Shown: one piece after another, positions 4,975 to 42,977 of the stretch
Numbering within the stretch: position 1 is the first letter of the stretch
Layout: every line of letters begins with the position of its first letter
NCBI GenBank assembly: GCA_015655125.1
Contig: JAATFP010000061.1
Location: 1-64,000 of the forward strand
DNA length: 64,000 nucleotides
Direction of reading: 5' to 3'
From: Chitinophagales bacterium
Lineage (GTDB): Bacteria; Bacteroidota; Bacteroidia; Chitinophagales; Chitinophagaceae
The notes under the pieces: model-generated
The model's input: the letters and a program-made list of their open reading frames with translations, nothing else
Told to the model about the DNA's origin: nothing
Databases searched by the model: none
Program-made: the position numbers and the translations under genes

Positions 4975-5005
4975 AGTGTATTTGTTATGGGCATCAGTTT
5001 GTCTG

Positions 5006-5067
5006 GTTTAGGGATTAGATGGCACGCACTTAGGTTTTTATCTAACCTCTAATCTCTAAACCCTAAA
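5006..5067. repeat. GTTTAGGGATTAG inverted repeat, copy 1
   Basis: Between prfA and the divergent amidohydrolase. The left arm starts with GTTTAGGGATTAGA and the right arm ends with CTAATCTCTAAACCCTAAAC; they are imperfect reverse complements around a centre of about 28 bases. A second copy with the same arm sequences lies at 35312-35380 before ilvC, which shows it is a dispersed family rather than a local hairpin. Confidence 0.7.
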
Positions 5068-5164
5068 CTTTTTAAAACCGGGTTTGATATTTTCGCCTGA
5101 TGCCTTTTTATTAATTTAGCGGCAAAATTACACTTTCTCAATTACACTTTCTTAACCAATCATT

Positions 5165-23296: not shown

Positions 23297-24862
23297 TTAC
23301 CCTTGATCATTATTCTTTTTGATCCTGCTACTTTGAAATTTTCTTCGGATGATTTCCTGCACCGGCACATTGTGGATCTTGCTTTCCAGCCAGCTTACAA
23401 TATCAAGATACTGATAGGAGCGGCGGTTGTATTTACTTGCAGAAACCGTTTCCAGCTTGTCGCGCAATTGCATGAATGATTTTCTGACATCTTTAGGTTT
23501 GGATGAAAGCGACCTGCGGAGGAACGCAAATATTTCCGTAAGCACCGCATCAAGATTTTCCATTTTGGACAAAAAGCGATAAACGGATTTTATCAGGTAT
23601 TCCACCAGTTCCATATTTCCCAATTCATAATGTGCTATGAGATGCAGCAATCGTGCGAAACATTGAATGTCGGTACGCAACTGCCCCACTTTTAAATTGA
23701 TGATCTTATTGAGATATACGATAGCCCGTTCGTTATCACCGGAACCAAAATACAAACTGGCGATCTTATAGTAAAACACCAGCACACGATGAGTATCGAT
23801 GTACTGCTGATACTGTTTTAATTTTTCTTCAATCGGTTTCACCAGTTCCAGGCCCTCCGTGAATGTACCTTCGAGGAAATGCTGGTTAATTTTTGCGGTG
23901 TATAGATATACGAAAGTCTGTATCTCCAGGTTTTCGCTGAATCCGCCGGCCAGCGCATAAAATTTTTCCAGTTGCTTAAGCTCCTGGTTCATTCTTTCAT
24001 GTCGCCCGATGATGAACAGCGCATTCAATAAATTATGTACCGCTTTCACATAAAGAAACGGCTCTTCTTTTTTTGCTTCGGGGTGTTCGGTAAATAATTG
24101 TACCCACTTCTCCGCATGGCGGTAATATTTTGTAAAGTCGAGCTGTATAATGTAATACCAGCAATAGCTTTGATGAAAATATGCCTTGCCAAAAAAACTG
24201 ATCTGCGCCTCGTTGATGCCGTCGGTATTCTGGCGGAATATTTTTTCAATCTCCTTGCTGTGCGCTTCATCCGAAACATGGCCGTTTTCCAAATACAATT
24301 CATACATCCGCAGCGCAAGATTGGATAAATGCGTTACTTCATTTATTTGCTTGATGCTAAAATCCGTTTCGTCGATAAGCGCGCCGGCACGCCCTTTCAG
24401 GCTTCGGGTAATATGGCGCGATTCAATATCTTTTTCAAATTGCAGTATTTCCAGTGTCAAAATAAAATGACTGTTTGTCTTTGCCACCACTTTTACTTTC
24501 TCCAGGATCTTCAGTGCCTGGATGATCAATCCGCGGTTGTACAATATCCGCGCAAAATCGATCTGCTCACGGATCTGTATTTCCATGTTCTTCAAACTGT
24601 GCAGCAATCGCAGTGACGTAAGCAGTTCGCCGTATAAATGCGCCTTGATATTGGGTAATTGCTGCCGCGAAATGGAAGGAACTTTTTTCAAAACCGCTTC
24701 CTCGCTATATTCTTTTAAAGCATCCAATGCATCAAAAAGACGGGCAAATTTCGAATCTTCCGTAGCCTGGTTCCGTGATATATAAAGCTTAAAATGACGC
24801 TTTTCCGCTCCAACGAGCGATTTTACGAGTAAAAAAAGCGGGTCATTCACATTGTTTGGCAT
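23297..24862 (-). CDS. large helical protein, possibly TPR-like, unknown function
   Basis: 521 aa, no signal peptide and no membrane segment, so cytosolic. It is helix-rich throughout with repeated hydrophobic heptad-like patterns (for example ILYNRGLIIQALKILEKVK near 110, and SGDNERAIVYLNKIINLK near 380), which resembles TPR-type helical repeats without clear consensus. The C-terminal 60 residues are basic. I recognise the overall type from Chitinophagaceae genomes but know no function. A long gap separates it from the divergent leu genes. Confidence 0.6.
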   Translation of the reverse strand: MPNNVNDPLFLLVKSLVGAEKRHFKLYISRNQATEDSKFARLFDALDALKEYSEEAVLKKVPSISRQQLPNIKAHLYGELLTSLRLLHSLKNMEIQIREQIDFARILYNRGLIIQALKILEKVKVVAKTNSHFILTLEILQFEKDIESRHITRSLKGRAGALIDETDFSIKQINEVTHLSNLALRMYELYLENGHVSDEAHSKEIEKIFRQNTDGINEAQISFFGKAYFHQSYCWYYIIQLDFTKYYRHAEKWVQLFTEHPEAKKEEPFLYVKAVHNLLNALFIIGRHERMNQELKQLEKFYALAGGFSENLEIQTFVYLYTAKINQHFLEGTFTEGLELVKPIEEKLKQYQQYIDTHRVLVFYYKIASLYFGSGDNERAIVYLNKIINLKVGQLRTDIQCFARLLHLIAHYELGNMELVEYLIKSVYRFLSKMENLDAVLTEIFAFLRRSLSSKPKDVRKSFMQLRDKLETVSASKYNRRSYQYLDIVSWLESKIHNVPVQEIIRRKFQSSRIKKNNDQG

Positions 24863-25037
24863 CGTAAATTATTTTTAATAAACCCTTTGTCAACAGCACT
24901 TTCGGAAAAAAAAACCTCTTTCTTGAACCGTAAAACCAACATCATTTTGATTTCTTTTAGGGCGCCAATGGGTATATTTTACACAACTGCTTCAAAATTA
25001 CGGCAGCATTACGGTATTACACATTTAATATTTAAGC

Positions 25038-29634: not shown

Positions 29635-29642
29635 GGATGTAG

Positions 29643-29700
29643 TGTCAATCTAAGCATGCCGAAAGGTAATCTAAATGGTTCGGCAAGCTCACCATGGCAT
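29643..29700. repeat. intergenic repeat with GCCGAA / TTCGGC arms
   Basis: After leuB. Contains GCATGCCGAAAGG and GGTTCGGCAAGCTCACC, arms partly complementary (GCCGAA against TTCGGC) and ending in ATGGCAT. It resembles the repeat type common in Bacteroidota intergenic DNA and is a looser relative of the CTTGTCGAAGG family in this window. Confidence 0.5.
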
Positions 29701-29716
29701 AAAAATATAAAAGTTC

Positions 29717-29747
29717 TTTGTTTATAAACCGGGCAGTCGTAGATTAG
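29717..29747 (+). promoter_or_regulatory. candidate promoter of the ilv leader transcript
   Basis: TTTG at 29717-29720 and TAGATTAG at 29740-29747 are 19 bases apart. This fits the Bacteroidota layout of a -33 TTTG and a -7 TAnnTTTG with one mismatch in the latter. Transcription would begin about 10 bases before the leader-peptide ATG at 29764. Confidence 0.55.
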
Positions 29748-29763
29748 CATTATAATACTCCTC

Positions 29764-29868
29764 ATGCACAAAAGGAAGGTAAATAATGTAATAGCTGTTA
29801 TAACCACAATAATTATTGTGGTTGTCATTATTATTATTCCATCGCATGGAGGAGGTGCTATCGTCTAA
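29764..29868 (+). CDS. Ile/Val-rich leader peptide (ilvL-like)
   Basis: 34-codon open frame between leuB and ilvE, too short for normal ORF calling. 10 Ile and 7 Val make 17 of 34 codons, including ten in a row (IIIVVVIIII, codons 16-25), then P-S-H-G-G-G-A. There are no Leu codons. The N-terminus is basic (MHKRK). The pattern closely recalls the E. coli ilvGMEDA leader, which has VISVVVIIIPP and then Gly-Ala. The stop codon lies 20 bases before a terminator hairpin. Established model: when charged Ile- or Val-tRNA is scarce, the ribosome stalls here, changes RNA folding, and lets transcription reach the ilv genes. That it does so in this organism is inference. Confidence 0.82.
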   Translation: MHKRKVNNVIAVITTIIIVVVIIIIPSHGGGAIV

Positions 29869-29888
29869 AAATTTAGAAATAAGATACT

Positions 29889-29924
29889 AAGCGGCCCGCC
29901 TCCAAAAAGGTGGGCCGCTTTTTT
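29889..29924 (+). terminator. attenuator terminator of the ilv operon
   Basis: 13-bp stem (AAGCGGCCCGCCT against AGGTGGGCCGCTT, one G-U pair), 6-base loop CCAAAA, then a run of T. It sits after the leader peptide and 33 bases before the ilvE ATG, so it would stop transcription before the structural genes. GGAGG at 29848-29852 (repeated at 29851-29855), inside the end of the leader frame, can pair with CCTCC at 29899-29903 in the terminator's left arm, a possible antiterminator. Confidence 0.88.
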
Positions 29925-29957
29925 ATGCGACCGTTTATAAACAATAAAAAATTAAGC

Positions 29958-30851
29958 ATGTACTACAACAACGACACGATCATTTATTTCAACGGAGAAT
30001 TTGTAAAAGCAGCAGATGCGAAGATGGATCTCTACAGTCAGAGTCTGCACTATGGCTATTCCGTATTTGAAGGGATCAAATCTTACGAAACAGCCAACGG
30101 TATAAAAATATTCAAAGCAAAAGAACATTATGATCGTTTGCGTCATTCGGCGAAAGTGATGCAGATGCCTTTTGATATCGGCACTGAAGAACTGACCAGA
30201 TTGACCTATGAAGTGCTGAAAAAAAATAATTTTAGCAATGCATATATAAGGCCGGTTGTTTTTTGTTCGCCCAACATGTCTTTGTCGAAAGGCAAAGAGG
30301 CGTTCCTCGCAATTGTTGCCTGGGAATGGACAAACGGTTACCTCGCCAATAAAATGCGGTTGATGACTTCTTCCTATTGCAGACCCAATCCGGGCGCTTT
30401 CCATATCGAAGCCAAAGTAAGCGGCCATTATGTAAACTCCATTCTCGCCTGCCAGGAAGCAAAAGACAGTGGCTTTGATGAAGCGATCTTACTGGATACA
30501 AATGGCTTTGTAGCCGAAGGGCCGGGCGCAAATGTATTCATTGAAAAAGATGGAATACTGTATACGCCGGCCAAAGGGAATATTTTGCCGGGTATTACAA
30601 GAGCAACGGTAATCGACATCTGCCATGAATTGAATATTACAATTGTTGAAAAACTATTTACTGCAGAATAAATGCGCAATGCCGACAGCGCCTTCTATTG
30701 TGGTACCGCTGCAGAAATAGTAGTATTGGAATCGCTCGACAATGCTGTGTTTAAAAAGGATTGGGAAGAAAGTTTAGGATACATCATTCAGCAGGCGTAT
30801 CAATGTAAGGTGCAGGAAAAAGAATTCAGGCTACAGCAACAGATAGCGTAA
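29958..30851 (+). pseudogene. ilvE: branched-chain aminotransferase interrupted by in-frame TAA
   Basis: Fold-type IV PLP enzyme that makes Val, Ile and Leu from the 2-oxo acids. The ATG at 29958 (MYYNNDTIIYFNGEF) is the natural start. Lys153 (EAKVSGHYVNS) is the PLP lysine, and the phosphate-binding block GNILPGITRATVI follows. After 237 codons the frame hits TAA at 30669-30671, then continues in the same frame for 59 codons that are plainly the IlvE C-terminus: NADSAFYCGTAAEIVVLESLD and SLGYIIQQAY, ending at 30849-30851. In relatives this place has an acidic residue, so GAA to TAA would explain it. The short product lacks the GTAAE segment that contacts the cofactor phosphate, so it is probably inactive unless the stop is an error or read through. 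Confidence 0.85.
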
Positions 30852-30973: not shown

Positions 30974-32659
30974 ATGTCAGAAATAAATAAATATAGCAAA
31001 ACGCTCACGCAGGATGAAACCCAACCCGGCGCACAAGCCATGTACTACGCGATTGGTTTCAAAGACGAAGATTTTAAAAAAGCGCAGGTAGGGGTTGTGA
31101 GTATGGGGTGGGACGGTAATCCATGCAACATGCATTTAAATGATCTTGCTACAAGTGTAAGACAAAGTATCAATACTACAGAAGGCTTGCTGGGACTGCG
31201 ATTCTACACGATCGGCGTGAGCGATGGTATCAGTATGGGAACCGATGGGATGCGGTACAGCCTGGTAAGTCGCGATGTAATCGCTGACAGTATCGAAACA
31301 AATGCAGGCGCGCAATATTACGATGGGCTGATTGCGATTCCGGGTTGCGATAAAAACATGCCTGGTTCGCTAATGGCAATGGGAAGGCTCAACAGGCCGT
31401 CTATCATGATTTATGGCGGAACGATCGCGCCGGGCCACTACAAAGGCGAGGACCTTAATCTTGTAAGTGCATTTGAAGCGCTCGGCCAAAAGATCGCGGG
31501 GAATTTAGAGGAAGCGGAATTTAAAAATATTGTGAAGCATGCGTGTCCCGGCGCCGGTGCCTGCGGCGGAATGTATACGGCCAATACTATGGCGAGCGCG
31601 ATCGAAGCGCTTGGCATGAGCCTTCCAAACTCGAGCAGCAACCCGGCTTTGAGCAGTGCCAAACAAAAAGAATGCGAAGAAGCCGGGGCCGCGATAAAGA
31701 TATTATTGGAAAAGGATATCAAGCCAAAAGATATCATGACCATGAAAGCATTTGAAAATGCGATCACAGTAATTATGGTACTGGGCGGCAGTACCAATGC
31801 GGTACTGCATTTGATCGCGATCGCAAAAAGTGTGGATGTTCCCTTAACACAGGATGATTTTCAGGCGATCAGCAACCGCGTTCCCGTGCTGGCAGATTTT
31901 AAACCTTCCGGGAAATACCTGATGGAAGACTTGTTTAAACATGGCGGCGTTCCGGCGGTAATGAAATATCTGTTGAAAAAGGGATTGCTGCACGGCGATT
32001 GTTTGACCGTTACCGGAAAAACAGTAGCAGAAAATCTGCAGGATGCCCCTGATCTTGATTTTGAAAAACAGGATATCATCATGCCGTTGGAAAGACCATT
32101 GAAAGCCACCGGCCACCTGCAAATATTATATGGCAATCTTGCAGAAAAAGGAAGCGTAGCAAAGATCAGTGGTAAGGAAGGTGAGCGGTTTGAAGGAACT
32201 GCAAGGGTATTCGATGGTGAAAAAGATCTGATTGCAGGATTGCAGTCGGGTAAAGTACATGCTGGTGATGTAGTCGTGATCCGCAATATCGGACCAAAAG
32301 GTGCGCCCGGAATGCCGGAAATGCTGAAACCGACAGGAGCCATTATCGGCGCGGGTTTGGGCAAATCCGTTGCACTGATAACTGACGGAAGATTTAGTGG
32401 CGGAACACATGGCTTCGTCGTCGGGCATATTACACCGGAAGCCGTCGATGGCGGGTTGATCGGCCTGGTGGAAGATAATGACATCATTGAAATTGATGCG
32501 GTGAGCAATACACTAAACCTGAAAGTTCCGGAAGAAATTATTGCTCAACGACGCGCGCAATGGAAAAAACCCGCGTTGAAAGCAACAAAAGGCATCTTGT
32601 TCAAATACGCACAATGCGTGAAAGATGCGAGCGAAGGTTGTGTAACAGACGAATTGTAA
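30974..32659 (+). CDS. ilvD: dihydroxy-acid dehydratase
   Basis: 561 aa. Fe-S enzyme of valine and isoleucine synthesis that dehydrates the 2,3-dihydroxy acids to 2-oxo acids. Cluster cysteines are visible in [15 protein letters not shown] near residue 122 and [19 protein letters not shown] near 193, and the third conserved region [14 protein letters not shown] is near 475. Length and motifs fit bacterial IlvD. ilvB starts one base after its stop, so the two are translationally close. Confidence 0.97.
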
Positions 32660-32660
32660 A

Positions 32661-34424
32661 ATGACAGAAAGATCAAAAAAAATATTTATGGATACGCTTG
32701 AACTTATTAAAGACGAAGAGATAAAAAACGAATCTGTTTCTATCAGCGGATCTGTAGCGGTTCTTGAAGCATTAATTGCCGAGGGCGTTACCGAAATTTT
32801 CGGCTACCCGGGAGGTGCCATCATGCCCATTTATGACGCGCTGTACGATTACGAGTCAAAACTCAATCATATCCTTGTTCGCCACGAGCAAGGCGGGATC
32901 CATGCCGCGCAAGGTTTTGCGCGTGCAAGCGGACGCACGGGGGTTGTGTTTGCAACCAGCGGGCCGGGCGCTACAAATCTCGTTACCGGACTTGCGGATG
33001 CACAGATCGACAGTACCCCGATCGTTTGTATCACCGGACAGGTGTTTGCGCATCTGCTTGGGACGGATGCATTCCAGGAAACGGATGTGATCAATATTAC
33101 AACACCGGTTACCAAATGGAACTACCAGGTAACAGATGCCAGCGAAATCCCCTCCGTACTTGCAAAAGCTTTCTACATCGCCGGAAGTGGCCGTCCGGGC
33201 CCGGTATTGATCGACATTACAAAAAATGCTCAGCTGCAATTATTCGATTATAAAGGATATACCAAGTGCAATCACATTAGAAGCTACCGGCCGGTACCAA
33301 TCGTACGCAAAGAATATGTGGAAGAAGCAGCGAAGCTGATCAATGAAGCAAAAAAACCTTTCGTGATTTTTGGGCAGGGAATTATTTTGGGAAAAGCAGA
33401 AAAAGAATTTGCGGCATTCATTGAAAAAGGGAATTTACCGGCGGCATGGACGATCATGGGAATGAGCGCCATTCCTACGAATCATCCGCTGGGAGTGGGA
33501 ATGCTGGGCATGCATGGTAATTACGGACCCAACGTTCTGACCAATGAATGCGATGTGTTGATCGCAGTCGGAATGCGTTTCGACGATCGGGTAACAGGGC
33601 GCCTAGACAAATATGCAAAACAGGCCAAAGTGATCCACCTCGATATCGATCCTTCCGAAATTGACAAGAATGTAAAAACAACGGTTCCGGTTTGGGGCGA
33701 TTGTAAGGAGACATTGCCAATGCTGACCGCTTTGCTCGACAAAAAGGAAAATAAAGAATGGTTGCAGAAATTTGCTGACTACGCAAAAGAAGAAGAAACA
33801 ACCTGTATTATCCCGGATCTGCATCCGGCCACAGAAGAATTGTCGATGGGCGAAGTAATCAAAACATTAAATGAATTGACAGCGGGCAATGCCATCATCG
33901 TAACAGATGTGGGTCAGCACCAGATGGTGGCCTGCCGGTATGCAAAGTACAATAACAGCAAAAGCAATATAACGAGCGGAGGATTGGGTACAATGGGATT
34001 TGCGTTGCCTGCGGCAATCGGCGCAAAATTTGGTGCGCCTGAAAGTACCGTCGTTGCTATCATTGGTGATGGCGGTGTGCAGATGACTATCCAGGAATTG
34101 GGTACCATCATGCAAACGGGCGTTGATATAAAAATCTTAATTCTCAATAACCGCTTTCTCGGAATGGTTCGTCAATGGCAGGAACTTTTTCATGAAAAAA
34201 GATATTCGTTCACCAATATCCAAAGTCCGGATTTTGTAAAAGTGGCCGCCGCGTATGGCATCGATGGAAAAAAAGTAAGCGCAAGAAATGATCTGAGCTC
34301 ATCGCTTAAAGAAATGCTCAACCACAAAGGATCGTTCTTACTGGAAGTGATCGTGGGAAAAGAAAACAATGTGTTTCCAATGGTACCGCAGGGTTGTAGC
34401 GTTTCTGAAATCAGGTTAAAATAA
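32661..34424 (+). CDS. ilvB: acetolactate synthase large subunit
   Basis: 587 aa thiamine-diphosphate enzyme: condenses two pyruvates to acetolactate (valine, leucine) or pyruvate with 2-oxobutyrate (isoleucine). N-terminal domain with FGYPGGAIMPIYDAL near residue 52 and the catalytic Glu in RHEQGGIHAAQGFARASG; a middle domain; C-terminal TPP domain with GDGGVQMTIQELGTI and the end of the metal motif LILNNRFLGMVRQWQ. The start one base after ilvD is used; a second ATG at codon 10 is possible. The small subunit ilvN is one gene further on. Confidence 0.96.
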   Translation: MTERSKKIFMDTLELIKDEEIKNESVSISGSVAVLEALIAEGVTEIFGYPGGAIMPIYDALYDYESKLNHILVRHEQGGIHAAQGFARASGRTGVVFATSGPGATNLVTGLADAQIDSTPIVCITGQVFAHLLGTDAFQETDVINITTPVTKWNYQVTDASEIPSVLAKAFYIAGSGRPGPVLIDITKNAQLQLFDYKGYTKCNHIRSYRPVPIVRKEYVEEAAKLINEAKKPFVIFGQGIILGKAEKEFAAFIEKGNLPAAWTIMGMSAIPTNHPLGVGMLGMHGNYGPNVLTNECDVLIAVGMRFDDRVTGRLDKYAKQAKVIHLDIDPSEIDKNVKTTVPVWGDCKETLPMLTALLDKKENKEWLQKFADYAKEEETTCIIPDLHPATEELSMGEVIKTLNELTAGNAIIVTDVGQHQMVACRYAKYNNSKSNITSGGLGTMGFALPAAIGAKFGAPESTVVAIIGDGGVQMTIQELGTIMQTGVDIKILILNNRFLGMVRQWQELFHEKRYSFTNIQSPDFVKVAAAYGIDGKKVSARNDLSSSLKEMLNHKGSFLLEVIVGKENNVFPMVPQGCSVSEIRLK

Positions 34425-34428
34425 AAAA

Positions 34429-34713
34429 ATGGTAACCGAAATGGCGGTGCTAAAAATAAAGTCAGGGCAATCAGAAAGTTTTGAAACCGCTTTTTCTGAA
34501 GCATCGAACATTATCAGCAGCATGGTTGGATATATTTCTCATGAATTGCTGAGGTGCTTAGAGCAACCAGATCAATACCTGCTGATTGTTCGATGGGAAA
34601 AATTGGAAGACCACACCATCGGATTTAGAAAAAGCGAAAAATATCAAAGATGGAAGAAGCTGTTGCATCATTTTTACGGACCTTTTCCAACAGTTGAACA
34701 TTACATTAAATGA
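34429..34713 (+). CDS. ABM-domain monooxygenase-like small protein
   Basis: 94 aa, cytosolic. Resembles the antibiotic-biosynthesis monooxygenase / YgiN ferredoxin-like fold: start MVTEMAVLKIKSGQSESFETAFSEAS, centre LEQPDQYLLIVRWEKLEDHTIGFRKSEKYQRWK, and a C-terminal HHFYGPFPTVEHY. Members include small cofactor-free quinol oxygenases and heme-degrading proteins, but many have no known role. It sits between ilvB and ilvN with gaps of 4 and 1 bases, so it must be cotranscribed. Function in branched-chain amino acid synthesis is unknown. Confidence 0.75.
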   Translation: MVTEMAVLKIKSGQSESFETAFSEASNIISSMVGYISHELLRCLEQPDQYLLIVRWEKLEDHTIGFRKSEKYQRWKKLLHHFYGPFPTVEHYIK

Positions 34714-34714
34714 A

Positions 34715-35311
34715 ATGAACATGAACAAAGCCGAATACACGATCACCGTTTACACAGAAAACCAGATCGGTTTGCTGAACCGGATCGCGATCATTTTTTC
34801 ACGTAGAAAAATAAATGTGGACAGTCTCAACACTTCACCAACAGAAGTAGAGAGCGTTCATCGCTTCACGATCGTTATCAATGAAACGGAAGACGTTGTA
34901 AGAAAACTTTGCCGGCAGATCGAAAAGCAGGTAGACGTATTGAAAGCATTTTACAATACCGAAGACGAGATTGTTTGGCAGGAAATGGCACTATACAAAG
35001 TATCGACAGACGAGATAGCAGAGAAAGTAAAAGTGGAAAGATTGCTTCGCGAATACGGCGCGCGTGCGGTGGTGATCAGGAAAGATTATACTGTTTTTGA
35101 AACAACCGGTCACCGCGAAGAAACCGCCGGCCTGATAAAGGCGCTCGAACCTTATGGCTTGATTGAATTTGTGAGAAGCGCGAGGATAGCGATTATCAAG
35201 GACAGCAGCGGCTTTCATGAAAGATTAAAATATTACGAATCAGCAGCGCCGGGCGATGAGTTGGTGGAAAATGAATATTTGAATCAGCAGGATGAAGTAT
35301 TTAGCATGTGA
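34715..35311 (+). CDS. ilvN: acetolactate synthase small (regulatory) subunit
   Basis: 198 aa. Regulatory subunit of acetolactate synthase that binds valine and raises activity of IlvB. The first ACT domain is clear: YTITVYTENQIGLLNRIAIIFSRRKINVDSLNTSP, residues about 7-41, and a second ACT-like part starts near 95 (ALYKVSTDEIAEKVKVERLLREYGARAVVI). The open frame extends upstream to 34586 inside the ABM gene, but that part is not family-like, so the ATG at 34715 (or 34721, two codons later) is preferred. Slightly longer than E. coli IlvH because of an acidic tail. Confidence 0.93.
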   Translation: MNMNKAEYTITVYTENQIGLLNRIAIIFSRRKINVDSLNTSPTEVESVHRFTIVINETEDVVRKLCRQIEKQVDVLKAFYNTEDEIVWQEMALYKVSTDEIAEKVKVERLLREYGARAVVIRKDYTVFETTGHREETAGLIKALEPYGLIEFVRSARIAIIKDSSGFHERLKYYESAAPGDELVENEYLNQQDEVFSM

Positions 35312-35457: not shown

Positions 35458-36564
35458 ATGGCAACATTAAATTTTGCAGGTACTGAAGAAAATGTGGTTA
35501 CACGCGAGGAATTTCCTTTATCAAAAGCGCAGGAAGTGTTGAAGAATGAAGTGGTAGCGGTAATTGGCTACGGCGTGCAAGGGCCGGGACAGGCATTGAA
35601 CCAAAAAGAAAATGGCATCAATGTCATCGTTGGTCAGCGCAAGAATTCTAAAAGCTGGGACAAAGCTGTTCGTGATGGTTTTGTAGAAGGCGAGTCTTTA
35701 TTTGAAATTGAAGAAGCGCTTGAAAAAGGCACGATTATTTGTTATCTCTTAAGCGATGCTGCGCAAATTGCTATGTGGCCAACGGTGAAAAAACATCTGA
35801 CTCCAGGCAAGGCGCTGTATTTTTCTCACGGTTTTGGAATTACATATAACGATCAAACCGGAATTGTTCCACCTGCGGATGTGGATGTTTTTTTAGTGGC
35901 GCCGAAAGGAAGCGGCACATCGCTTCGCAGAATGTTTCTGCAAGGTCGCGGTCTTAACAGCAGCTATGCCATCTTCCAGGACGCCACAGGCAAAGCTTTT
36001 GAAAGAGTGGTGTCTTTGGGTATAGCGATTGGTTCGGGATATTTGTTTGAAACAAACTTTAAAAAAGAGGTATACTCCGACCTTACCGGCGAACGCGGAA
36101 CATTGATGGGTGCTATACAAGGAATTTTTGCTGCGCAATTTGAAGTGCTTCGTTCAAAAGGGCACTCACCTTCTGAGGCATTCAATGAAACAGTGGAAGA
36201 ACTCACGCAATCACTGATGCCGCTTGTGGCAGAAAATGGCATGGACTGGATGTATGCTAATTGCAGCACTACTGCACAGCGTGGCGCACTCGACTGGTGG
36301 AAGAAATTCCGGGATGCTACGATGCCGGTATTCACTGAACTGTACGAGAGCGTGGCTGAAGGAAAAGAAGCAGCTAAATCAATTGAAAGTAACAGCAAGG
36401 CGGATTACCGAGAAAAGCTGGAAGCAGAATTGAAAGAATTGCGCGAAAGCGAATTGTGGCAGGCGGGAAAAACGGTGAGAAGTCTGCGTCCGGAAAATCA
36501 AAAGCCGGCCACAGAAGCGACGCCTGTACTCAATCCCAGAAAATTTACAGAATCGGTAAGCTAG
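35458..36564 (+). CDS. ilvC: ketol-acid reductoisomerase, plant/fungal-like form
   Basis: 368 aa. Isomerises and reduces acetolactate or acetohydroxybutyrate with NAD(P)H and Mg. Rossmann part: VAVIGYGVQGPGQALNQ (dinucleotide-binding Gly) and VIVGQRKNSKSWDKA near residue 55, where Arg-Lys and Ser would contact a 2'-phosphate, so NADPH is likely. C-terminal helical domain holds the metal ligands in SDLTGERGTLMGAIQG and the block GHSPSEAFNETVEELTQSL. From memory, the order and wording of these blocks follow yeast Ilv5 more than the E. coli enzyme. Confidence 0.94.
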   Translation: MATLNFAGTEENVVTREEFPLSKAQEVLKNEVVAVIGYGVQGPGQALNQKENGINVIVGQRKNSKSWDKAVRDGFVEGESLFEIEEALEKGTIICYLLSDAAQIAMWPTVKKHLTPGKALYFSHGFGITYNDQTGIVPPADVDVFLVAPKGSGTSLRRMFLQGRGLNSSYAIFQDATGKAFERVVSLGIAIGSGYLFETNFKKEVYSDLTGERGTLMGAIQGIFAAQFEVLRSKGHSPSEAFNETVEELTQSLMPLVAENGMDWMYANCSTTAQRGALDWWKKFRDATMPVFTELYESVAEGKEAAKSIESNSKADYREKLEAELKELRESELWQAGKTVRSLRPENQKPATEATPVLNPRKFTESVS

Positions 36565-36576
36565 TTTAAATAATTA

Positions 36577-37833
36577 ATGGAAACGATCAATCATATTACT
36601 GCGTCACTGGATTTTGCGGCAGCTGCAGAAAAGTTAAAGCCGGTTATCAACAGAACGGCCCTGCATTTCAACCAGCATCTTTCTGCGAAATATCAATGCA
36701 ATATTTTCCTGAAAAGAGAAGATTTGCAAATAGTGCGCTCTTACAAGATCAGGGGAGCCTATAATATGATGAGTCATTTATCATCCGAAAAATTACAGCA
36801 AGGCGTTGTGTGTGCAAGCGCAGGCAATCACGCACAAGGCTTTGCTTATTCGTGCAAGAAATTAAATTGCAAAGGCGTTGTATTTATGCCGGTGATAACA
36901 CCGAATCAAAAGATCCGGCAGACAGAAATGTTTGGCGAAAATTTCATAGAGATAAAACTCGCCGGCGACACGTTTGATGATTGCGCGATCGCGGCAAAAA
37001 AATATACCGAACAAAATAACATGACGTTCATTCCGCCATTTGACGATCTCAGGATCATCGAAGGACAAGGAACAGTTGCAAAAGAAATACTTGAAGATCT
37101 TACGGATATTGATGTTGTTTTTGTGCCGGTTGGCGGCGGCGGATTATGTGCAGGTGTGGGAACATTCTTTAAAATTTATTCTCCCAAAACGAAGATCATT
37201 GGTGCGGAGCCTGAAGGTGCACCGTCAATGTTCGAAGCTTTGAAGGCCGGCCATCCGGTGACTTTGGAAAACATCGAACGTTTTGTAGATGGAGCTGCCG
37301 TAAAAAAAGTAGGTGACATTACCTTTTCTATTTGCAAAGAAGTGCTGGATGATATGCATCTCGTTCCTGAAGGAAAAGTTTGTTCCACTATTTTAAAATT
37401 ATACAACGAAGATGCGATCGTTGTTGAGCCTGCCGGCGCATTGTCGATAGCAGCGCTGGACGCTTATGCCGATGTGATCAAGGGGAAAAATGTGGTATGT
37501 ATTGTAAGCGGCAGCAACAATGACATCGATCGCATGCAGGAGATCAAAGAACGCAGTCTTCAATACGAAGGCCTAAAGCATTATTTTTTGATCCGTTTTG
37601 CGCAGCGCCCGGGCGCACTGAAAGAATTTGTAAATCATGTGTTGGGTGACAATGATGACATCACGCGTTTTGAATACATGCAAAAACACAACAAAGAAAC
37701 GGGGCCGGCATTGGTTGGAATTGAATTAAAATCAAAAGAAGATTACAAAGTGCTGCTAAACAAACTGGATCAATACAAGATCAATTACACAGAATTAAAA
37801 AACAACGATAATGCTTTTGGTTACCTGGTATAA
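36577..37833 (+). CDS. ilvA: threonine ammonia-lyase, biosynthetic
   Basis: 418 aa PLP enzyme that makes 2-oxobutyrate from threonine, the first step of isoleucine synthesis. PLP lysine K57 in VRSYKIRGAYN; ASAGNHAQGFAYSCK near 90; VGGGGLCAG near 185 for phosphate binding. The C-terminal 90 residues (EGLKHYFLIRFAQRPGALKEFV onward) form one ACT-like regulatory domain, so isoleucine control is plausible. Starts 12 bases after ilvC and ends the ilv operon. It faces the minus-strand urease-associated genes. Confidence 0.95.
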   Translation: METINHITASLDFAAAAEKLKPVINRTALHFNQHLSAKYQCNIFLKREDLQIVRSYKIRGAYNMMSHLSSEKLQQGVVCASAGNHAQGFAYSCKKLNCKGVVFMPVITPNQKIRQTEMFGENFIEIKLAGDTFDDCAIAAKKYTEQNNMTFIPPFDDLRIIEGQGTVAKEILEDLTDIDVVFVPVGGGGLCAGVGTFFKIYSPKTKIIGAEPEGAPSMFEALKAGHPVTLENIERFVDGAAVKKVGDITFSICKEVLDDMHLVPEGKVCSTILKLYNEDAIVVEPAGALSIAALDAYADVIKGKNVVCIVSGSNNDIDRMQEIKERSLQYEGLKHYFLIRFAQRPGALKEFVNHVLGDNDDITRFEYMQKHNKETGPALVGIELKSKEDYKVLLNKLDQYKINYTELKNNDNAFGYLV

Positions 37834-41261: not shown

Positions 41262-42977
41262 TCAAAATAAAAAATATCGCTGCGCCAAAGGCACTACAGT
41301 CGCAGGTTCGCAGGTGATATGAACTCCATCAACTTTCACTTCATAATTTTCCGGATTCACATCAATCTGTGGAGTTGCATCATTGTGGATCAAATCTTTC
41401 TTTGAAATATTGCGGCAGTTTTTTACCGGCAATACGATCTTTTGCAATTCATATCCTTTCATAATATTGTTATCAAGCGAGATCTGCGAAACAAAACTGA
41501 TGCAGGTTTTGTGCAATGCTTTTCCAAAAGTGCCAAACATGGGACGGTACATCACCGGCTGGGGCGTTGGAATAGAAGCATTCGGATCACCCATCCTGCT
41601 GGCGATGATCATGCCGCCCTTAATGATCATTTCCGGTTTGGCGCCAAACATCGACGGCTTCCACAAAACAAGATCCGCAAATTTTCCCGCCTCGACGGAA
41701 CCAACATATTCACTGATACCATGTGAGATCGCCGGGTTGATCGTATATTTCGAAACATATCTTTTTACCCTGAAATTATCGTTGTTGTTGTTTTCATCTT
41801 CTTTCAAAAAGCCGCGCTGCTGCTTCATCTTGTGTGCCGTTTGCCACGTACGGGTGATTACTTCGGCCACGCGCCCCATTGCCTGGCTGTCGGAACTCAT
41901 CATGCTGAACACGCCCATGTCGTGGAGGATATCTTCTGCTGCAATTGTTTCGGGACGAATGCGGCTGTCGGCAAATGACACGTCCTCCGGCACATTCTTG
42001 TCAAGATGATGGCATACCATCAGCATGTCGAGATGTTCATCAATGGTGTTTTTTGTATAAGGACGCGTTGGGTTGGTGGAAGACGGCAACACGTTTTGAT
42101 ACATGGCCGCTTTGATAATATCCGGCGCATGGCCGCCGCCGGCGCCTTCTGTGTGAAACGTATGGATCACACGTCCATCGATGGCCTTGATGGTGTCTTC
42201 TAAAAACCCCGATTCATTCAAAGTGTCGGTGTGAATGGCCACCTGCACATCATACTTATCTGCCACTTTTAGAGAAGCGTCGATGACGGCTGGCGTAGAA
42301 CCCCAGTCTTCATGTATCTTCAGGCCAAGTGCGCCTGCTTCGATCTGTTCTTCCAGCGGAAGTGCAGATGCACAGTTGCCCTTTCCATAAAAGCCAAGGT
42401 TCATCGGAAATGCCTCTGCAGCTTCCAGCATTTTTTGAATGTTCCATGCGCCGGGAGTTACAGTGGTTGCGTTGGTTCCATCAGCCGGTCCGGTGCCGCC
42501 GCCAAGCATGGTGGTGATGCCGCTGTACAAAGCGTGATCGATCAGTTGCGGACAAATAAAATGAATATGTGTATCGATACCGCCGGCTGTAGCTATCAAA
42601 CCTGCGCCACCATGAACTTCTGTTGAAGCGCCGATGATCATATTTTCGTCCACGCCATCCATTGTATCCGGGTTTCCGGCTTTCCCGATTCCGGCGATCT
42701 TTCCATCTTTGATGCCGATGTCAGCTTTTACAATTCCCCAATGATCGACGATCATCACACTCGTGATCACAAAATCAAGTACGCCTTCTTTGCGAGTTGC
42801 AGTAGCCGATTGCGCCATGCCATCACGGATCGTTTTACCGCCGCCAAACTTGGCTTCATCACCATACACAGTAAAATCTTTTTCAATTTCAATGATAAGA
42901 TCAGTATCACCCAGCCGCACTTTATCGCCGGTGGTGGGGCCGTACATGTTGGCGTATTTAATTCTGTTGATATTCAT
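41262..42977 (-). CDS. ureC: urease subunit alpha
   Basis: 571 aa, catalytic subunit; hydrolyses urea to ammonia and carbamate. Nickel ligands: H137-x-H139 (GGIDTHIHF), the Lys220 that becomes carbamylated ([10 protein letters not shown]), H249, H275 ([15 protein letters not shown]) and Asp363 ([11 protein letters not shown]). The mobile flap Cys322-His323 (MVCHHLDKN) is present. All required residues are intact, so the enzyme should be active when matured. Confidence 0.98.

Follow-up and report, generated by a model that had tools for sequence, protein, structure and literature searches.

The ilv operon of Escherichia coli is controlled by attenuation. In the part of a 2010 study that is accessible (PMC2965389), leader-peptide systems are described as known only in Proteobacteria and Actinobacteria, with Firmicutes added there. 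The attenuators of these phyla, all other than that of the locus described here, share with it a cognate-codon leader peptide and a terminator. Closer in phylogeny are candidates at amino-acid operons of Flavobacterium psychrophilum, a member of the same phylum, for which strong clues of leader-peptide attenuation were reported in 2021; in its accessible text there is no mention of an ilv leader, peptide or antiterminator (PMC9723704). The available text of three further sources mentions leader-like short frames in Bacteroides (PMC7366714), lists Bacteroid-trp as a cis-regulatory candidate of Bacteroidetes (PMC2864571) and cites Lopatovskaya 2010 (PMC4833913). Our search of the open-access literature, with subscription journals mostly outside its scope, found no description of a Bacteroidota ilv leader. 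The Lopatovskaya study may include Bacteroidetes.

Here we describe a locus within 64,000 nucleotides of contig JAATFP010000061.1 from a Chitinophagales bacterium of the family Chitinophagaceae, a stretch that we call the window. Conservation, covariation, antiterminator complementarity, spacing, and the match of Leu and His codons to downstream genes lead us to conclude, from comparative sequence analysis and with a probability of about 90%, that this element is a classical ribosome-mediated transcription attenuator of the ilv operon.

Results

Anatomy of the leader region

The genes leuA, leuC, leuD and leuB lie upstream of the leader, and ilvE, ilvD, ilvB, ilvN, ilvC and ilvA lie downstream. 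The features, some of them predicted, are the following, with counts that refer to the 42 leaders compared below.

29717-29747, plus strand: promoter-like site, with TTTG at 29717, a 19-nt spacer and TAGATTAG at 29740
29758-29767, plus strand: segment 1 (CUCCUCAUGC) over the start codon, a possible protector of segment 2 in the predicted fold (0 of 200 shuffles)
29764-29868, plus strand: leader peptide gene (MHKRKVNNVIAVITTIIIVVVIIIIPSHGGGAIV), 34 codons, 17 of them Ile or Val; similar in relatives
29809-29838, plus strand: control codons, ten successive Ile/Val, from the frame translation and a shuffle test
29844-29857, plus strand: segment 2 (GCAUGGAGGAGGUG), putative antiterminator strand within Gly codons, its pairing shuffle-tested; GGAGG or GGTGG in 35 of 42 leaders
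29889-29903, plus strand: segment 3, the terminator left arm and loop start, of which CGCCUCC (29897-29903) is predicted to pair with segment 2
29889-29924, plus strand: intrinsic terminator, a 13-bp stem (29889-29920) plus TTTT, with covariation in relatives
29958-30671, plus strand: ilvE, first gene past the attenuator, scoring under the curated NCBIfam cut-offs, as its shortened frame would lead one to expect
30974-32659, plus strand: ilvD, dihydroxy-acid dehydratase
32661-34424, plus strand: ilvB, acetolactate synthase large subunit
34700-35311, plus strand: ilvN, acetolactate synthase small subunit, start codon uncertain
35458-36564, plus strand: ilvC, ketol-acid reductoisomerase
36577-37833, plus strand: ilvA, threonine ammonia-lyase

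A first-pass annotation of this DNA had pointed to a 34-codon frame rich in Ile and Val, with ten such codons in a row and no Leu, and the frame is present as claimed, with zero Leu codons. In dinucleotide shuffles of 29635-29957, scored over any frame of at least 10 codons, the longest Ile/Val run was 6, compared to 10 observed, and 0 of 2,000 shuffles went above 6. The predicted translation, half of it Ile or Val and standing before ilv genes, thus has the cognate codons expected of a classical attenuator. Within the control codons there is also a self-complementary 11-bp stretch (29800-29825), perhaps a polymerase pause hairpin or a product of chance.

The terminator was likewise found where it had been placed, with its stem beginning 20 nt after the leader stop codon. 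Nine of its 13 pairs are G-C, the loop is 6 nt and TTTT follows; among 22 terminator-like sites in the 15-kb stretch scanned it ranks first, with the most G-C pairs. The stem by itself is predicted at -25.7 kcal/mol (z -6.6), and the leader RNA from 29752 to 29930 at -62.2 kcal/mol (z -6.8), with no equally stable fold in 200 shuffles. The complementarity of GGAGG in the frame end to CCTCC in the terminator arm proved slightly better than first claimed: in the predicted folds, GGAGGUG (29851-29857) pairs with CGCCUCC (29897-29903) over 7 bp as long as the right arm is absent, and the terminator fold wins (-31.5) once the right arm is present, so that the two competing structures envisaged by the annotation both appear. 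The antiterminator fold of the window is modest, at -13.7 kcal/mol and a z of only -1.7.

Around the leader, the start of ilvE lies 34 nt beyond the terminator T-run. The ilvE frame is cut after 237 codons by an in-frame TAA (30669-30671) and is open on to 30851, while the ilvE frames of relatives are longer, at about 300 codons, and intact; the TAA is either genuine or an assembly error. Upstream of the leu genes, the terminator scan listed no terminator between 25000 and the leuA start, and inspection by eye of 24863-25037 revealed no recognizable leader of the ilv kind. Between ilvB and ilvN the window carries a gene for a 94-aa antibiotic biosynthesis monooxygenase (ABM, PF03992; 34429-34713), a relative of which occurs in 1 of 140 loci (L063), many of these loci stopping short of that place.

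Distribution among relatives

Related loci share a pattern before ilvE or ilvD that consists of an Ile/Val run, often a Pro, Gly codons and a terminator. Leaders were found at 40 of 80 ilvD loci from GTDB genomes, some of the leaderless loci being on contigs cut upstream; this count comprises 38 loci flagged by a simple scan, less 1 false one, plus 2 recovered by a covariance model (L105, L116) and 1 by eye (L134). The leader-bearing loci are mostly from Chitinophagaceae or from Bacteroidetes at large, and more diverged leaders occur in Chryseobacterium, Elizabethkingia, Pedobacter, Flavobacterium and one Cyclobacteriaceae genome. For detailed comparison we used 42 leaders, of which 36 came from the 80-locus scan and 6 were further ones, with the leader of the window as L001. 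Left out were L100, whose frame by eye resembles an ATP synthase epsilon subunit, and L097, which has the same leader as L005; an extra frame at L138 was removed, and the start at L140 was shifted to a later ATG. L105, L116 and L134 have leaders and stand outside this set.

A covariance model built from 13 leaders (R1) extended the search. The first-pass annotation had staked its reading on conservation of the short frame and hairpin in related genomes, and both the Ile/Val peptide and the hairpin are kept: R1 matches 212 of 394 family genomes and 72 of 101 genera at E<=0.01. The individual family matches listed extend down to E 2.8e-9; outside the family, some weak matches prove to be His or Thr leaders. 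The genome of the window has one match, at E 7.5e-16. In the class, 31 of 395 genomes matched, 5 of the 31 within the family, and in the phylum 7 of 296, with 6 of the 7 within the family; at the level of sequence, R1 is nearly specific to the family. At 25 R1 loci outside the family, where ilv genes were located by tblastn and other gene names assigned by eye, 7 have leaders of ilv type, 4 have His leaders before hisG, 3 have Thr leaders before thrA and 11 have no recognizable leader.

The common order among relatives is leuA-C-D-B, leader, ilvE in some, ilvD, ilvB, ilvN and ilvC. In Chitinophaga the leader precedes ilvE, and the upstream stretch that was fetched holds no leu gene. One ilv-type leader that matches R1 lies half a megabase from ilvD, on the minus strand at about 5001-5118 (L249, genome G062); it precedes an ACT-domain gene (PF13710) that may encode an acetolactate synthase small subunit, and the gene after that one looks, by eye, similar to the gene beside leuA at 23297-24862 of the window.

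We also compared these loci to described RNA families. Rfam release 15 at gathering thresholds returned no leader family in the window, and its E-value mode returned none at seven related loci; a known Rfam family as the identity of the element was rejected on these grounds. Bacteroid-trp RNA (RF01692), a Bacteroidetes cis-regulatory candidate that by its name stands before trp genes, has no match in the window or the seven relatives. The sole Rfam match in the window is elsewhere, to RF02514 (5_ureB_sRNA; 42533-42827, plus strand, 77.8 bits), and possibly reflects nothing more than conserved urease coding sequence.

Covariation, antiterminator pairing and spacing

The compensatory changes for which the annotation had proposed to look are seen in the terminator. 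In an alignment of 50 R1 matches, 94.9% of terminator cells are paired, all 11 of 11 modelled pairs show two-sided changes and there are 90 compensatory cells, a result that is favored because the alignment was fitted to the structure. None of 500 shuffles reached any of five covariation measures, and sliding the terminator model by 1 to 3 columns lowered the pairing to 36 to 63%.

Pairing energy between the frame end and the terminator left arm was compared to 200 shuffles for each leader and fell within the best 5% in 35 of 42; the 7 above that mark are L005, L070, L071, L077, L079, L120 and L123. The words that pair differ, with GGAGGA and TCCTCC in Chitinophaga, TGTGAGA and TCTCACA in Chryseobacterium, GAATCG and CGATTC in Elizabethkingia, and TTGGGGCG and CGCCCCGA in the Cyclobacteriaceae genome. 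By this measure the predicted antiterminator pairing is kept across lineages despite the differing words.

Spacing was measured in the 35 of 42 leaders that have GGAGG or GGTGG. The word lies a median of 15 nt beyond the first base of the codon that ends the final hydrophobic run, with both quartiles at 15 and a range of -13 to 24; from the first base of the word to the stop codon, the median is 12 nt (range 6 to 37). The corresponding distances in the window are 12 nt and 18 nt. A ribosome covers some 12 to 15 nt downstream, and with this footprint the spacing implies that a ribosome stalled in the run would leave the word free and that one at the stop codon would cover it.

Promoter-like site and start-codon helix

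A promoter-like TTTG-N19-box had been noted 17 nt before the leader ATG. Its positions hold and a similar box precedes the leaders of most relatives, but 16 nt separate the TAGATTAG box from the ATG, and the box is imperfect. The Bacteroidota -7 consensus is TAnnTTTG, to which the -7-like box of the window is an inexact fit. The pattern TAnnTT[T/C]G occurs at most 70 nt upstream of the ATG in 33 of 42 leaders and at 15 to 21 nt in 25 of those 33; the box of the window itself deviates from it.

One element had been absent from the first-pass annotation. CUCCUCAUGC, which spans the start codon, is able to pair with 29844-29854, and the most stable predicted fold of the window pairs it with segment 2. 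Measured against shuffles, this start-codon helix reaches the best 5% for 14 of the 42 leaders, including that of the window (0 of 200) and 3 of 5 from Chitinophaga; in the same shuffle test it misses the mark in Chryseobacterium, Pedobacter and the Cyclobacteriaceae genome. We regard the helix as probably real in the lineage of the window and not general. It lies at the start codon and off the control codons, so a ribosome stalled on those codons would leave it exposed, whereas another that loads after the stalled one could cover it.

Leader codons follow the downstream genes

The annotation had related the missing Leu codons to the position of the leu genes upstream and outside the control. 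Across leaders this relation is borne out: the median Leu/(I+L+V) is 0.44 where leu genes lie within 12 kb downstream (n=8, other families of the class), 0.17 where no downstream leu genes were seen (n=8, other families of the class) and 0.12 where, as in the window, leu genes are directly upstream (n=28), with Mann-Whitney p of 0.026 and 0.0002 for the comparisons, which ignore kinship and, with several rows from one family, overstate independence. Exceptions are L271, with one Leu in ten despite downstream leu genes, and L240 and L255, which are Leu rich with no leu genes within 12 kb. The scan behind this test covered 45 class-wide stretches upstream of ilvD and flagged 21 on the sense strand and 3 on the antisense control; 16 leaders were kept, with L231 and L256 (epsilon-subunit-like) and L236, L263 and L264 (longer hydrophobic proteins) dropped by eye.

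His-rich frames with a terminator stand upstream of hisG at 27 of 29 family loci (L171-L200). The hisG leader in the genome of the window (L194) is one such His-rich frame, MQNFIHIHHHHTLPHGKLC. Upstream of thrA there are Thr/Ile-rich leader frames (L201-L230; L203 in the genome of the window). That these share the ilv terminator design was rejected, as a terminator is within reach of the frame in 1 of 29; at 24 of 29 loci a short hairpin (for example, CAACCC-GTTAA-GGGTTG) holds the stop codon in or at its loop, with compensating stems such as ATCCGC/GCGGAT, ACCCTC/GAGGGT and AACCCC/GGGGTT. These leaders appear to be attenuators built in a different way, and they perhaps form a new RNA motif; L203 has no Rfam match. 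By eye, the L201 and L202 loci seem to rely on an ilv-like terminator that contains the words GGAGG and CTTCCTCC, in place of the stop-codon hairpin.

Discussion

Anatomy, conservation, covariation, geometry and codon-gene match support attenuation at this locus; transcription start, stalling, termination and readthrough are what we infer from them. RNA polymerase would initiate just upstream of the leader gene, with a ribosome following on the leader. When charged Ile- and Val-tRNA are ample, the ribosome would reach the stop codon and cover GGAGG in segment 2, the terminator would form and transcription would end near 29924. When Ile or Val is scarce, the ribosome would stall within the ten-codon run, its leading edge just short of segment 2, and the free segment 2 would pair with the terminator left arm while the right arm is still to be transcribed. 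The terminator would thereby be prevented, and polymerase would continue into ilvE-ilvD-ilvB-ilvN-ilvC-ilvA. Transcripts that run in from leuB would be subject to this switch as well. A weaker but probable addition is that the start-codon helix keeps the terminator on in an untranslated leader.

Could the terminator simply close the leu operon, with a small hydrophobic peptide that is unrelated to it and a separate promoter for ilvE? A strong terminator does come after leuB, and in its hydrophobicity the peptide resembles a membrane peptide. However, peptide and terminator also occur together at the Chitinophaga loci lacking an upstream leu gene in the fetched stretch, the leader codons vary with operon content, and complementarity between the terminator arm and the last part of the peptide gene recurs across lineages. 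On these three points we rejected this explanation, which we consider extremely unlikely. The leader might instead regulate mainly at another step, through initiation gated by the start-codon helix or through control of ilvE translation, the terminator then being incidental. The most stable fold of the window spanning the leader start codon would suit such a role, as would the Thr leaders of the same genomes, which are mostly without a terminator and thus show that other leader designs exist. Yet the helix passes in a minority of leaders, whereas terminator and antiterminator are conserved, and ilvE starts far enough past the T-run to be outside the switch; we regard regulation mainly at another step as quite improbable. 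Finally, the terminated leader RNA or its peptide could additionally act in trans on other genes, which would be compatible with attenuation. A discrete, stable short RNA is predicted, and a trans-acting leader peptide has been reported in Sinorhizobium (PMC7298713, in its accessible text), but the peptide here is conserved mainly in its control codons and the Gly codons of segment 2, and we give this suggestion scarcely any credence.

Ribosome-mediated attenuation of the ilv operon is the probable explanation of ilv control in many genomes of the family, and leader plus terminator constitute a candidate new RNA family. That such attenuation is the default control of ilv, his and, in a different build, thr operons across Bacteroidota is a tentative extension that we put forward with some doubt. 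If it is true, transcription and translation would be tightly coupled in Bacteroidota. Bacteroidota mostly initiate translation without Shine-Dalgarno pairing; on the same supposition, a GGAGG antiterminator word could sit freely in coding sequence. The protector would then be the start region of the leader itself, making leader initiation a second input. Ribosome-polymerase coupling in Bacteroidota becomes testable at these loci. We view the find as solid and useful and not startling, with its reach lying in the implication of family-wide attenuators for that coupling.

The ilv attenuator most likely belongs to a known mechanism, of which the accessible text on F. psychrophilum holds earlier general hints for the phylum (PMC9723704). 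For Bacteroidota, on which the literature searched offers general clues only, it provides a concrete and widely conserved example of the textbook mechanism. The nearest counterpart is ilvL of E. coli K-12, the leader of ilvXGMEDA (MTALLRVISLVVISVVVIIIPPCGAALGRGKA), which is likewise a short peptide encoded before ilv genes, in which Pro, Gly and Ala come after a Val/Ile run, and peptides compared by eye show that the leaders of relatives resemble it as well. The resemblance may stem from either descent or convergence. The two differ in codon content, as E. coli ilvL has Leu codons and the window leader has none. They also differ in architecture: unlike in E. coli, the antiterminator word GGAGG of the window lies inside Gly codons, and its possible protector is at the start codon rather than over the control codons.
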